A stretch of 64,000 bases of DNA from Streptomyces naganishii JCM 4654. Lineage in GTDB: Bacteria; Actinomycetota; Actinomycetes; Streptomycetales; Streptomycetaceae. Shown piece by piece: positions 8,942 to 51,882 of this stretch. Each line of letters starts with the position of its first letter. Position 1 is the stretch's first letter. The stretch lies in NCBI RefSeq assembly GCF_014650575.1, contig NZ_BMVF01000003.1:434001-498000 (forward strand), read 5' to 3'. The notes beneath the pieces were generated by a model. That model worked only from the letters and a program-made list of their open reading frames with translations. It did no database searches and was not told where the DNA came from. The position numbers and the translations under genes were made by a program.

Positions 8942-9827
8942 CGCTGAGCGGAGAAACGACTGCTCCCCCGGGGCCTCCCGTACCCCGGCGTCCGCCCGGC
9001 ACCGCGGGCCCAGGCCACCGCCGCGACGGTCCGGCGGAGCACCGCCTCCCGGGAGACGGTGTCGCGGCCTCCGGCGACCGGCGTGCCCGGCGCGTCTTCG
9101 GCGCGGGTGGCCTTCGGCCGGCCCATGGACTCACGGACCACTTGGCCGCCGGTCGGTCAGAGCTCCCCGGACACGATCCGGACACCCGTCGCCGGTACGA
9201 GCCCGACGTCGAGCCCGACGTCGACCAGGATGACGGGGCCTGAGGGCCACGCAGGCGCTCGCGGCTCGGGCGGGCCAACTGCGCGACGCGCTCACCCTGA
9301 TGCACCAACGCGGCGGGACGGAGTCGCACGCGGCCACCTTCGCGCGGGCGCTGCGCGCGCTGGACGGGGAGCGGCGCACCGCCCGTGTCACCGTCCCGCC
9401 AGGCCAGGGCAGTTGACGCACCCTCCGGCGAGCGCCGCACCCGGCGACGACGAAGCGCGGGCCGCCGAGTCGAAACGGACCAAATGACGTACCCCCTTTC
9501 AGCGTAGGAACGCGTCCTTTTTCGGCACCGTCCGGGTTGCGCAACGCGCGTGCCCGGATGGCGGAATGGGGCGTTCCGGTGCTGGTCCGGGGCTCGCCGC
9601 CAAGAGCGACGACCGTTCGAACGCACGGGTGTCCACCCGAACGGGTGAGTGGTGAGTAACAACACAAATCCCCGGTTGCGTTGGGATTTTCGGACATCCG
9701 TGGGTGAAGATCCGTGTCTGACGACAAGCCCCCGCCACAGCGGCGGGGCGGTCCGCGCGGACGCCGAGTCCTGCCGCCGCGCGGATGACCGGTCGACGGA
9801 AGTGGATCGGCAGGAGTGGAGGACCCA
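8942..9827. other. gene-poor stretch with a possible decayed reading frame
   Basis: About 880 bp with no convincing gene. A coding-like stretch at 9121-9416 on the plus strand reads in one frame to a stop at 9241 and continues in another (QALAARAGQLRDALTLMHQR) to a stop at 9416, which could be a small pseudogene with a one-base frameshift near GGGGCC at 9235-9240. I do not recognise it. The right part holds a GGAAC-type promoter candidate and a 7-bp hairpin (9730-9748) before the riboswitch. Confidence 0.35.
9507..9532 (+). promoter_or_regulatory. candidate sigma-E type ECF promoter
   Basis: GGAAC (9507-9511), 17-nt spacer, CGTC (9529-9532) matches the GGAAC-N16/17-CGTC pattern of the Streptomyces cell-envelope stress sigma factor SigE. 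It points toward the c-di-AMP riboswitch and NlpC/P60 gene, which would give a leader of about 430 nt. Distance makes the link uncertain. Confidence 0.35.
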
Positions 9828-9962
9828 AGCACGACGGGTCGCCGGAACGGTCACGCCATGACCGGACCGAGCAGCCCTTGGGGTGAAGCCGCGGCAACGC
9901 GGCCGGGCAACTTCGCCAGCCCGAATCCGACAGGTCATCCTTCACAGGCGGCTGACGAAGGG
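9828..9962 (+). ncRNA. ydaO/yuaA c-di-AMP riboswitch
   Basis: Contains the hallmark conserved pieces in order: TTGGGGTGAAGCCG, a GC stem (CCGCGGCAACGCGG), GGGCAACTTCGCCAGCCCGAA, CGACAGGTCATCCTTC, CAGGCGG and the terminal GAAGG just before the start codon. The 5' boundary is approximate. In Streptomyces this RNA sits in front of cell-wall hydrolase genes (for example rpfA) and reduces expression when c-di-AMP is high. Its 3' end (GAAGGG) also supplies the ribosome site of the NlpC/P60 gene, so control at readthrough or translation is plausible. Confidence 0.93.
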
Positions 9963-9968
9963 TTGCGC

Positions 9969-49172: not shown

Positions 49173-49580
49173 GTGTACGGCGACGCGGCGACGATCCGGA
49201 AGATCCTGACCGAGCTCGGTGACACCTGGGCAGTGGTGGGGCTGTCCTCCAACCGCGGCCGCGCCGCGTACGGCGTGGCGCAGGTGCTCCAGCGCTTCGG
49301 CAAGCGCGTCGTCCCCGTGCACCCGAAGGCGGAGACGGTGCACGGCGAGCGGGGCTACGCCTCCCTCGCGGACATCCCCTTCGACGTGGACGTGGTGGAC
49401 GTCTTCGTCAACAGCGACCTGGCCGGCGCCGTGGCCGACGAGGCGGTGGCCAAGGGCGCGAAGGGCGTCTGGTTCCAGCTCGGCGTCGTCGACGAGTCGG
49501 CCTACGCCCGGACCCGCGCCGCGGGCCTGGAGATGGTCATGGACCGCTGCCCCGCCATCGAAATCCCCCGGCTTGTGTAA
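49173..49580 (+). CDS. CoA-binding domain protein (YccU-like)
   Basis: A 135-residue Rossmann-fold CoA_binding_2 protein: WAVVGLSSNRGRAAYGVAQVL, GKRVVPVHPKAETVHGERGY, VDVVDVFVNSDLAGAVADEA, KGVWFQLGVVDESAYARTR and the end MDRCPAIEIPRL with a conserved Cys. Yeast and bacterial relatives bind CoA and may take part in thiol modification. GAGGAG 7 nt before GTG 49173 sets the start. Divergent from the CysS-like gene. Confidence 0.92.
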   Translation: MYGDAATIRKILTELGDTWAVVGLSSNRGRAAYGVAQVLQRFGKRVVPVHPKAETVHGERGYASLADIPFDVDVVDVFVNSDLAGAVADEAVAKGAKGVWFQLGVVDESAYARTRAAGLEMVMDRCPAIEIPRLV

Positions 49581-49637
49581 CCTGTGTCACGCTCTTCTAA
49601 CATTTCGCAACTGAATAGAGACATTCCGCGACCCGCC

Positions 49638-49665
49638 TTGACCTGTGCAAAGTCCACGCAAAGGT
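49638..49665 (+). promoter_or_regulatory. candidate promoter of the APC permease gene
   Basis: TTGACC near 49638 is a good -35 box; AAGGTA about 17 nt downstream is a fair -10. A second candidate -10 (TAACAT, about 49597) lies further up. The 204-bp gap is AT-richer than the genome average. Confidence 0.35.
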
Positions 49666-49707
49666 AGCCCCCCTGGAAGAGTCAAATTTCCGGGATCGGG
49701 CTTCTGT

Positions 49708-49783
49708 TCAAGGGGCCTCCATTCCTACTCTGAGCCGCCATTGGGCGTTAATCCCCTTGTTCAGAAACTGAGAGGCCCCTTGA
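49708..49783 (+). promoter_or_regulatory. leader inverted repeat that can cover the permease ribosome site
   Basis: TCAAGGGGCCTC (49708-49719) and GAGGCCCCTTGA (49772-49783) are perfect 12-bp complements separated by 52 nt. The right arm carries the GAGAGG ribosome site and ends 1 nt before ATG 49785. A second CCCCTTG (49753-49759) can pair with the same left arm, which offers an alternative fold that leaves the ribosome site free. Confidence 0.6.
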
Positions 49784-49784
49784 C

Positions 49785-51422
49785 ATGGTGAAAGTCGACC
49801 ATGCAGCCCCCGACGTCACACGGGACCGGACCGGTCTGCGGCGCGACGTCGGTCTGATCGGACTGATGTGGGCCTCGGTGGGTTCCATCATCGGCTCCGG
49901 CTGGCTCTACGGCGCCGAGAAGGCCGTCGTGATGGCAGGCCCCGCGGCGATCATCTCGTGGCTGATCGGCACGGTGGCCATCGTCCTGCTGGCCCTCGTG
50001 CACGCCGAACTCGGCGGCATGTTCCCGGTGGCCGGCGGTACGGCCCGGTACCCGCACTACGCCTTCGGCGGACTGGCGGGCATGTCGTTCGGCTGGTTCT
50101 CCTGGCTCCAGGCGGCGACCGTGGCCCCGATCGAGGTCGAGGCCATGATCGGCTACGCCGCGCACTGGAACTTCGCCAAGGGCTTCCAGCACACCGACGG
50201 CACCCTGACGACCAGCGGTTTCGTCGTCGCCGTGGTCCTGATGGCCGTATTCGTGGCCGTCAACTTCCTCGGTGTGCGCGTACTGGCCCACACCAACAGC
50301 GCGGCCACCTGGTGGAAGATCGCCGTGCCGCTGGCCACGATCTTCATCATCGCCATCGGCAACTTCCACCCGCACAACTTCACCGTGCACGGTTTCGCCC
50401 CGTTCGGCGCGAAGGGCGTGCTCGGCGCGATCAGCTCCAGCGGCATCATCTTCGCCCTGCTGGGCTTCGAGCAGGCGATCCAGCTGGCGGGCGAGAGCCG
50501 CGACCCCAAGCGCGACCTGCCGCGCGCCACGCTGGGCTCGGTCGCCATCGGCGCGACCATCTACGTCCTGCTCCAGGTGGTGTTCATCGGCGCCCTGCCG
50601 GTGAGCTCCTTCGCGCACGGCTGGGCCAAGCTCGACTTCCCCGGCATCAGCGGCCCGTGGGCGGGCGTGGCGACGCTGGTCGGCCTCGGCTGGCTGGGCG
50701 TGGTGCTCTACGTCGACGCCGTCATCTCCCCCGGCGGCACCGGCCTGATCTACACCACGGCCACCTCCCGCGTCTCCTACGGCCTGGCCAAGAACGGCTA
50801 CGCGCCCAAGATCTTCGAGAAGATCGACTCCCGTGGCGTGCCGTGGTTCGGTCTGATCCTCTCCTTCGTGACCGGCATCGTCTGCTTCCTGCCGTTCCCG
50901 AGCTGGCAGGAACTGGTCGGCTTCATCACCTCGGCGAGCGTCCTGATGTACGCCGGCGCCCCGCTGGCCTACGGCGTCTTCTCCGACCGGCTGCCGCACC
51001 ACGAGCGTCCGTACCGCCTGCCCGCCGGCAAGGTGATCGCGCCGCTGTCCTTCGTGGTCGCCAACCTGATCATCTACTGGGCCGGCTGGGACACCCTGTG
51101 GCGCCTCGGCATCGCCATCGTCCTCGGCTACGTGCTGCTCGGCGGCTACGCCCTGTACGCCAAGAGCAAGGGACTGCCGGACGCGCCCCGGCTGGACTGG
51201 AAGGCCGCGCAGTGGCTGCCCGGCTACCTGCTGGGCATGGGCCTGATCTCCTGGCAGGGCGGCTTCGGCGGCCAGGGCCACATCGCACTGTGGTGGGACA
51301 TGCTGGTCGTCGCCGCCTTCTCGGTGGTCATCTACTACTGGGCGAAGGCCACCGCGTCGGCGCCCGAGGAGATCGAGCGGAGCATCGAGGAGGTCGTGGT
51401 CACCGACGCCCCCGCGCACTGA
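49785..51422 (+). CDS. APC family amino acid permease
   Basis: A 545-residue APC transporter with about 12-14 membrane segments. Conserved opening GLMWASVGSIIGSGWLYGAE, then MFPVAGGTARYPHYAFGGLAG, FALLGFEQAIQLAGESRDPKRDLPRA and YVDAVISPGGTGLIYTTATSR. Downstream helices include FITSASVLMYAGAPLAYGVF. It is related to aspartate/proton-symporter-like permeases; the substrate is unknown. C-terminal tail is acidic and cytoplasmic. The leader has features of post-transcriptional control, and two strong hairpins terminate the unit. Confidence 0.93.
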   Translation: MVKVDHAAPDVTRDRTGLRRDVGLIGLMWASVGSIIGSGWLYGAEKAVVMAGPAAIISWLIGTVAIVLLALVHAELGGMFPVAGGTARYPHYAFGGLAGMSFGWFSWLQAATVAPIEVEAMIGYAAHWNFAKGFQHTDGTLTTSGFVVAVVLMAVFVAVNFLGVRVLAHTNSAATWWKIAVPLATIFIIAIGNFHPHNFTVHGFAPFGAKGVLGAISSSGIIFALLGFEQAIQLAGESRDPKRDLPRATLGSVAIGATIYVLLQVVFIGALPVSSFAHGWAKLDFPGISGPWAGVATLVGLGWLGVVLYVDAVISPGGTGLIYTTATSRVSYGLAKNGYAPKIFEKIDSRGVPWFGLILSFVTGIVCFLPFPSWQELVGFITSASVLMYAGAPLAYGVFSDRLPHHERPYRLPAGKVIAPLSFVVANLIIYWAGWDTLWRLGIAIVLGYVLLGGYALYAKSKGLPDAPRLDWKAAQWLPGYLLGMGLISWQGGFGGQGHIALWWDMLVVAAFSVVIYYWAKATASAPEEIERSIEEVVVTDAPAH

Positions 51423-51435
51423 CCCGGCTTCCCGT

Positions 51436-51522
51436 ACGGTGTCCCGCCGGCCGCCACCCCCGTGGCGGCCGGCGGGACACCGTCGTTTCCGGCACCGGCC
51501 GCCGCCGGACGGCGGCCGGTGC
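51436..51522. terminator. two consecutive long perfect hairpins
   Basis: Hairpin 1: 51436-51457 pairs with 51462-51483, a perfect 22-bp stem with a 4-nt CCCC loop. Hairpin 2: GCACCGGCCGCCG (51492-51504) pairs with CGGCGGCCGGTGC (51510-51522), 13 bp with a 5-nt loop, ending at the ArsR stop codon. They separate the convergent permease and ArsR genes. Confidence 0.9.
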
Positions 51523-51882
51523 TCAGTCGTGCGTCGGCCGGTCGGCAAGCCGGTGGTCCGCCACGTTCAGCGCCTCGTCGACGAGGCGGCGCAGATGGCC
51601 GTCGCGCAGGGAGTAGATCACCCGGCGGCCCTCCTTGCGGGTGCCGACCAGGCCGGCCAGCCGCAGCCGCGCCAGGTGCTGGCTCACGGCGGGACGGGCC
51701 GCGCCACAGGTCTCGGTGAGCGTGCCGACGTCCGCCTCGCCCCGCGTCAGCGCGTGCAGCAGGGCGAGCCGGGTGCGGTCGCCGAGCAGGGCGAGGAGTT
51801 CGGCGGCGAGCGCCAGTTGCTCCTCGCCCGCATCACGCGGGTGCGCATCGTGCGCAGATGACAGGTGCATGCGTGCGCTCAT
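51523..51882 (-). CDS. ArsR/SmtB family metalloregulator
   Basis: A 119-residue ArsR regulator. Winged helix: LALAAELLALLGDRTRLALL, GEADVGTLTETCGAARPAVS, HLARLRLAGLVGTRKEGRRVIYSL. The DNA-recognition CGAARPAVSQHL holds one Cys, and the C-terminal DGHLRRLVDEALNVADHRL has Asp and His residues placed like the SmtB/CzrA/NmtR alpha-5 metal site. The N-terminus is also His-rich (MHLSSAHDAHPRD). It likely senses Zn, Ni or Co and represses the divergent CDF exporter. Confidence 0.92.
   Translation of the reverse strand: MSARMHLSSAHDAHPRDAGEEQLALAAELLALLGDRTRLALLHALTRGEADVGTLTETCGAARPAVSQHLARLRLAGLVGTRKEGRRVIYSLRDGHLRRLVDEALNVADHRLADRPTHD

Follow-up and report, generated by a model that had tools for sequence, protein, structure and literature searches.

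Sequence within or directly behind the promoter of a Streptomyces amino acid permease gene is complementary to the gene's own Shine-Dalgarno (SD) region, and across relatives the two sides of this complementarity covary. The most likely explanation, to which we give a probability of roughly 0.47, a little short of even odds, is that the SD-complementary arm acts as a filter for transcript origin by fold-back inhibition. We infer that the permease's own promoter would give rise to an mRNA beginning at about 49735-49741, without the 5' arm found in the window, and that this mRNA would be translated; RNA from the codirectional CoA-binding gene would carry the arm, fold onto the SD and be poorly translated at the permease start. 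Why keep a complement of the ribosome site where the gene's own message would not contain it? An arm that covaries, lies at the start or upstream of it and comes with a codirectional neighbour is what would be expected of protection from read-through translation. Promoter conservation, the positions of the arms, their covariation and the association with the upstream gene are direct observations. Throughout, the window is the whole 64,000-nucleotide stretch of Streptomyces naganishii JCM 4654 DNA that was analysed, and its features are as follows.

49173..49580, + strand: gene for a CoA_binding_2 domain protein, codirectional with the permease (PF13380, E 4.3e-39)
49681..49685, + strand: GTCAA element upstream of the -35 (mean information 1.59 bits; exact in 63/74 leaders)
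49701..49706, + strand: CTTnTG (CTTCTG in the window), presumed -35 region (mean 1.42 bits; exact in 51/74)
49708..49719, + strand: 5' arm, complement of the SD region, inside the promoter spacer
49726..49731, + strand: -10 box TACTCT (TANNNT at the aligned place in 74/74)
49732..49739, + strand: p1-p8, usual site of the SD-complementary arm; degenerate in the window (GAGCCGCC)
about 49735..49741, + strand: predicted transcription start (-10 position plus the 4-9 nt S. lividans distance)
49753..49759, + strand: loop CCCCTTG, competing pairing partner, not conserved
49770..49775, + strand: Shine-Dalgarno GAGAGG (tGAGAGGCC block, 1.78 bits)
49772..49783, + strand: 3' arm, overlapping the SD
49785..51422, + strand: APC-superfamily amino acid permease, 545 aa (PF13520, E 1.6e-44)

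Genome setting and homologous leaders

The host genome comprises 7.81 Mb in 75 contigs, and the nearest relatives of the permease are from Streptomyces, the top one being that of S. anandii JCM 4720 (98%; L043). None of the 23 NCBIfam models listed matches the permease at cutoff, and no substrate is assigned. The CoA_binding_2 gene, which ends in a stop at 49578-49580, about 190 nt 5' of the permease SD, is the presumed source of read-through transcripts into the permease leader. Some copies of the permease are interrupted: that of S. anandii (L069/L043) reaches an in-frame stop at 251 aa and has a match about 37 nt longer than most, and for both reasons looks frameshifted, and L041 reaches a stop at 121 aa. 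Elsewhere in the window, at 9784-9965 on the + strand, lies a c-di-AMP (ydaO/yuaA) riboswitch (RF00379; 39.2 bits, gathering score 38).

We gathered 97 distinct permease leaders and aligned 74. Excluded were 10 leaders with less than 70% identity over the first 110 aa and 11 named loci, namely the 63% paralogs together with L040 and L042, whose upstream regions look unlike the rest; of the 76 that remained, L065 and L039 fail the SD pattern and read TAATCG and TACTGT, respectively, at the place of the -10 box. Most of the covariation analysis uses a subset of 52 of the 74 (alignment A1), without the 12 leaders of the window's clade and 10 others lacking the CoA gene, a choice made after the family-arm data had been inspected. 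The tree was built with partial coding sequence for 16 of the 74 (12 loci of 50-60 codons, and L031, L041, L069 and L089, which are short). L146-L162 were left out: they are one further Streptomyces paralog and more distant homologs from another family within the order. A search for the CoA gene upstream of them gave no match, several of these entries being evidently read on the wrong strand. Further genome sampling brought up largely the Streptomyces genomes already drawn.

We searched nine genomes at E<=1 with a leader covariance model (R1), scoring 150 of the 1237-2004 first-look candidates in each. R1 matched once, at the permease leader, in each of eight genomes and gave no match in the ninth (G014); its single match in the window is likewise the permease leader. 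Because R1 matches this leader alone among the candidates scored, the arrangement looks gene-specific and we claim no regulon.

A conserved promoter and its predicted start

All 74 leaders carry TANNNT at the aligned place of the -10 box, the form in which Streptomyces -10 boxes are given in passages of two publications (PMC8780764, PMC8079986). Upstream of it the spacings are near-fixed: GTCAA, a possible activator contact, precedes the CTTnTG columns by 20 nt in 72 leaders and by 19 nt in two, and CTTnTG precedes TANNNT by 19 nt in 65 and by 18 nt in nine, whereas the distance from TANNNT to the SD varies from 26 to 50 nt. The -35/-10 spacer has the lowest information among the blocks compared (0.56 bits). 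A strict sigma-70 scan of the permease leader called no promoter, because the -35 is far from TTGACA. A passage on S. lividans places transcription starts 4-9 nt after the -10 box (PMC8079986), and since the box lies at 49726-49731 we predict the start at about 49735-49741. Normal permease mRNA would thus be without the 5' arm, since 49708-49719 is part of the -35/-10 spacer. An earlier, sequence-only reading of this DNA had depended on a start upstream of that arm; the conserved -10 box instead predicts one downstream of 49719.

Other inverted repeats occur around this promoter in a few relatives. Upstream of GTCAA in L093, L096 and L037, by eye, a TTCCTG...CCAGGAA repeat that looks like an operator replaces the TGACCTG element of other relatives, and the alignment places an inverted repeat, CCGCCTTT...AAAGGCGG, across the -35/-10 spacer of L018, L084 and L087.

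An SD-complementary arm that covaries across the family

Most relatives carry, in the 8 nt p1-p8 that immediately follow TANNNT, a complement to the GAGGCCnC of the SD region. Transcripts from the gene's own promoter would retain just the final few bases of this arm. Scanning positions along the 52 leaders of A1 gives a single clear peak of SD complementarity, at p1, with a mean excess of 8.52. The excess is 9.61 among 14 representatives of less than 75% identity, as against 0.17 for windows further upstream, and is weak (3.2) in the 10 leaders outside the window's clade that lack the CoA gene. In the same 52 leaders, 90.1% of cells pair, compared with 43-55% in slid registers; the covariation score is 0.167 against 0.078 after shuffling, and 20 cells are altered on both sides against 4.4 (each reached in 0 of 500 shuffles). 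The counts of pairs altered on both sides (3 against 1.7; 40 of 500) and of pair types (8 against 6.9; 138 of 500) are not striking. Pair p2-q7 occurs in all four Watson-Crick types (U-A, C-G, G-C and A-U) and p4-q5 in G-C and A-U forms; when every pair of columns is scanned and those formed in 55% or more of the leaders are ranked, p2-q7 comes second (E 0.21).

The covariation also exceeds a tree-based null over all 74 leaders (0.342 against 0.094, equalled in 8 of 1000); under the same null, neither the fraction of cells paired (140 of 1000) nor the number of pair types (90 of 1000) is significant. On 53 leaders, a set picked after seeing the data by omitting nine distant and the 12 window-clade leaders, the paired fraction and the covariation are reached in 0 of 1000 and the pair types in 136 of 1000.

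Because p1 overlaps the promoter, pairing between DNA sites rather than within RNA is a serious rival: the arms would be half-sites of a regulator, an inverted repeat spanning the promoter and gene start, and the covariation would be that of co-evolving operator copies. The overlap of p1 with the -10/+1 region suits such an operator, as do the palindromic nature of GAGGCCTC, which several relatives carry there, and the position of the window clade's arm about two helical turns further upstream. Against it, the loop from the p1 arm to the SD arm ranges from 28 to 37 nt among the 58 leaders with the CoA gene, unphased, a variation that suits RNA better than paired DNA sites; moreover, the SD copy is itself non-palindromic in most leaders, and by eye we noticed no likeness beyond the complementary core. 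We consider an operator unlikely. In some relatives, such as L121 and L124, an internal hairpin can be seen by eye between the arms.

The arm accompanies a codirectional upstream gene

A same-strand CoA gene precedes 58 of the 74 leaders, with 123-294 nt between the end of its match and the SD. The p1 arm stands out against shuffles at p<=0.05 in 39 of these 58 and in none of the 16 leaders without the gene (Fisher 6e-7, uncorrected for kinship). All 39 belong to the 52 CoA-gene leaders outside the window's clade, 13 of which miss that level. The sixteen leaders without the gene fall in few clusters, so the association rests on few independent contrasts. For a spacer arm, the leaders at p<=0.05 number 7 among the 58 that have the gene and 1 among the other 16.

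What stands upstream in place of the CoA gene was judged by a heuristic based on codon-position G+C. It places the upstream gene on the other strand in the six window-clade members that lack the CoA gene. Outside the clade it was applied to seven of the ten such leaders, all but L133, L135 and L141: the nearest gene called runs the opposite way in L089 and L044, is on the same strand but 477-979 nt away in L086, L035, L027 and L033, and is missing in L038. Transcription running in from upstream is a prediction, made from the codirectional gene in 58 of 74 leaders and from a search for terminator-like sites across 49560-51600 of the window that found none.

The 12-bp complementarity in the window and its clade

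In the window itself, 49708-49719 (TCAAGGGGCCTC) is the exact reverse complement of 49772-49783 (GAGGCCCCTTGA), 52 nt away, so the perfect 12-bp pairing described in the sequence-only reading is there. Two details of that description need adjusting: the 3' arm, said to contain GAGAGG, includes only its last four nucleotides (GAGG), the rest of 49770-49775 lying outside, and a single base separates it from the ATG at 49785, which it was said to abut. The complementarity was also expected to be conserved in homologous leaders, and this did not hold. The 12-bp register is complete in two of the 74, the window's leader and its near twin L069, and the others form 1-9 of its pairs; the longest unbroken run between spacer and SD in the remaining 72 is 3 to 8, near the shuffled null.

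Is the 12-bp match then a lineage-specific coincidence in a GC-rich spacer, functionless even if the family's p1 arm is real? Its restriction to two near twins would suit that reading, as would its location in the least conserved block and the frequency of shorter matches, since SD complements of 9-10 bp are expected by chance a few times per window. From both strands of the window we took 879 candidate starts preceded by an SD (at most four per reading frame) and compared them with a null in which upstream stretches were taken from elsewhere in the window, coding DNA included, at 20 draws per start. At 15-75 nt upstream, a complement to the SD of at least 9 bp is found for the permease alone, which enters the count with two adjacent starts. 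Expected hits under the null number 5.15 for 9 bp, 2.3 for 10 bp and 0.0 for 12 bp; it is therefore the length of 12 bp that is unusual. Nor did a run of 12 ever arise when the spacer of each of the 74 leaders was shuffled 100 times. The same comparison over the whole window finds three SD-complementary 8-mers at 15-75 nt upstream, two of them the permease's, where 11.45 are expected, as if such 8-mers were avoided; we make no claim from this, the null including coding DNA.

The window's clade speaks against coincidence as well. Across its 12 members the 12-bp register pairs 71.4% of cells, compared with 33-60% when slid, 70 of the 100 paired cells belonging to a 7-bp core. We find coincidence doubtful as an account of the match. 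The SD side is nearly invariant in this clade. The p1 arm is degenerate in all 12 members (2-4 of 8 pairs), and the peak of SD complementarity lies 21-24 nt further upstream of p1 (-24 to -21), with a height of 8.7-8.8 in the six members with the CoA gene and 3.9-4.4 in the six without. Taken one by one against 1000 shuffles, the spacer arms of members with the gene give p values of 0.0000 (the window's leader), 0.001 (L069), 0.007 (L101) and 0.025 (L013), with L011 (0.071) and L005 (0.404) above 0.05; those without it give 0.027 (L003), 0.066 (L070), 0.075 (L106), 0.253 (L063), 0.759 (L099) and 0.902 (L102). Under fold-back inhibition, the p1 arm of this clade would have decayed, and complementarity in the -35/-10 spacer, 12 bp long in this genome and in its near twin, would serve in its place.

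A 22-nt direct repeat (77%) also runs through this leader, at 49636-49657 and 49778-49799 (CCTTGACCTGTGCAAAGTCCAC and CCTTGACATGGTGAAAGTCGAC), its second copy covering the start codon; a comparable repeat at p<=0.05 occurs in 7 of the 74 leaders, and it may be a regulator site or chance.

Competing pairings and folding

The sequence-only reading had taken the leader for a translational on/off switch, in which a second CCCCTTG could pair with the 5' arm in place of the SD. That alternative pairing is indeed available: 49753-49759 complements 49709-49715, within a longer match of 14 nt at 86% that takes in 49702-49715 and 49753-49766. Were transcription to begin upstream of 49708, a ligand or factor could choose between two pairings that are both present in the window, and the full region folds better than shuffles (49700-49815; -44.4 kcal/mol, z -3.70); the fold beginning near the predicted start (49738-49815) has -19.4 kcal/mol and z -1.13. 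The relatives speak against such a switch in the normal leader. The -10 box sits between the arms in 74 of 74 leaders, the 7-bp run between spacer and loop occurs in two (the window's leader and L028) and in one of the 12 in the window's clade, and CCCCTTG lies between -10 and SD in three (the window's leader, L060 and L086) and in one of those 12. An Rfam search of the leader found no family at gathering score, in keeping with the earlier remark that no named RNA motif has this sequence, and the best match of a permissive search has E 3.3 and lies on the other strand. A switch worked by a ligand or factor in normal mRNA therefore seems improbable to us, neither pairing being conserved and the start being predicted downstream of the 5' arm. 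What survives of the proposal is its target: complementarity to the SD appears to be selected in the permease family. A conserved RNA switch formed from the 12-bp stem, considered as a candidate, was rejected on stem conservation in 2/74, loop pairing in 2/74 and the -10 box between the arms.

Translational riboswitches and RNA thermometers resemble the permease leader in that the SD is held in a stem. The permease differs in that its normal transcript is predicted to begin downstream of the 5' arm, its homologs do not keep the two exclusive pairings, and the leader matches no described family in Rfam.

Folding separates own-promoter from read-through RNA weakly. Over the 52 leaders, mean predicted SD openness falls from 0.35 in the own transcript to 0.17 in the read-through transcript, with 0.27 for shuffled upstream sequence. 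The drop reaches p<=0.05 individually in only 10 of the 52, in 3 of the 10 leaders without the CoA gene outside the window's clade and in one of the clade's six members with it. The window's own leader shows no separation (0.14 own, 0.10 read-through, p 0.347), and RNAalifold on the 52 leaders predicts no consensus pairs.

Relation to known fold-back systems

Set against what defines fold-back systems, the permease leaders have upstream sequence able to pair with the SD, seen as complementarity (12 bp in the window, an 8-bp covarying stem in the family). Their own promoter is predicted by conservation (TANNNT in 74/74) and, with a start where we predict it, would give transcripts lacking most or all of the arm. 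It is possible, and we put this forward tentatively, that streptomycetes keep a movable SD-complementary arm in the promoter of a chromosomal transporter, making translation depend on transcript origin, and that the arm is kept by its complementarity, lost away from a codirectional neighbour and re-evolved elsewhere in the window's clade. If so, genes could be insulated from transcription of a neighbour at the level of translation, with no terminator needed, and it would be a mistake to take promoter-overlapping segments complementary to an SD for riboswitches. The signature, an arm that covaries, sits at the start or upstream of it and is absent where the neighbour is divergent, could be searched for genome-wide given maps of transcription starts.

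A literature search at the level of titles and abstract openings, with subscription papers mostly outside its reach, returned no Streptomyces case of fold-back inhibition of read-through RNA. The principle is familiar from the transposases of IS10 and IS50, where upstream sequence pairs with the ribosome site and blocks translation of read-through RNA. The permease arm would share this protective role; by contrast, there is no transposase and no terminal inverted repeat, and the supposed source of read-through is a fixed neighbouring gene.

The closest likeness is to genes of phage T4. Passages of one publication (PMC2988022) describe the SD of I-TevI as sequestered only in transcripts from upstream promoters, its late promoter being placed so that late transcripts lack enough sequence to form the structure; they list I-TevI, I-TevII, I-TevIII and segB of T4 and mobE of phage Aeh1 as hairpin-regulated, and name T4 soc and e for SD sequestration. 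As proposed for the permease, the inhibitory structure forms on transcripts from upstream promoters and the gene's own promoter excludes the arm. The permease differs in being a chromosomal amino acid transporter with no phage timing, and its family's arms, of 8-12 bp, are placed differently between clades. If the proposal is right, a movable arm in the promoter would be the cell's equivalent of late-gene control in T4, insulating a gene from its neighbour's transcription.
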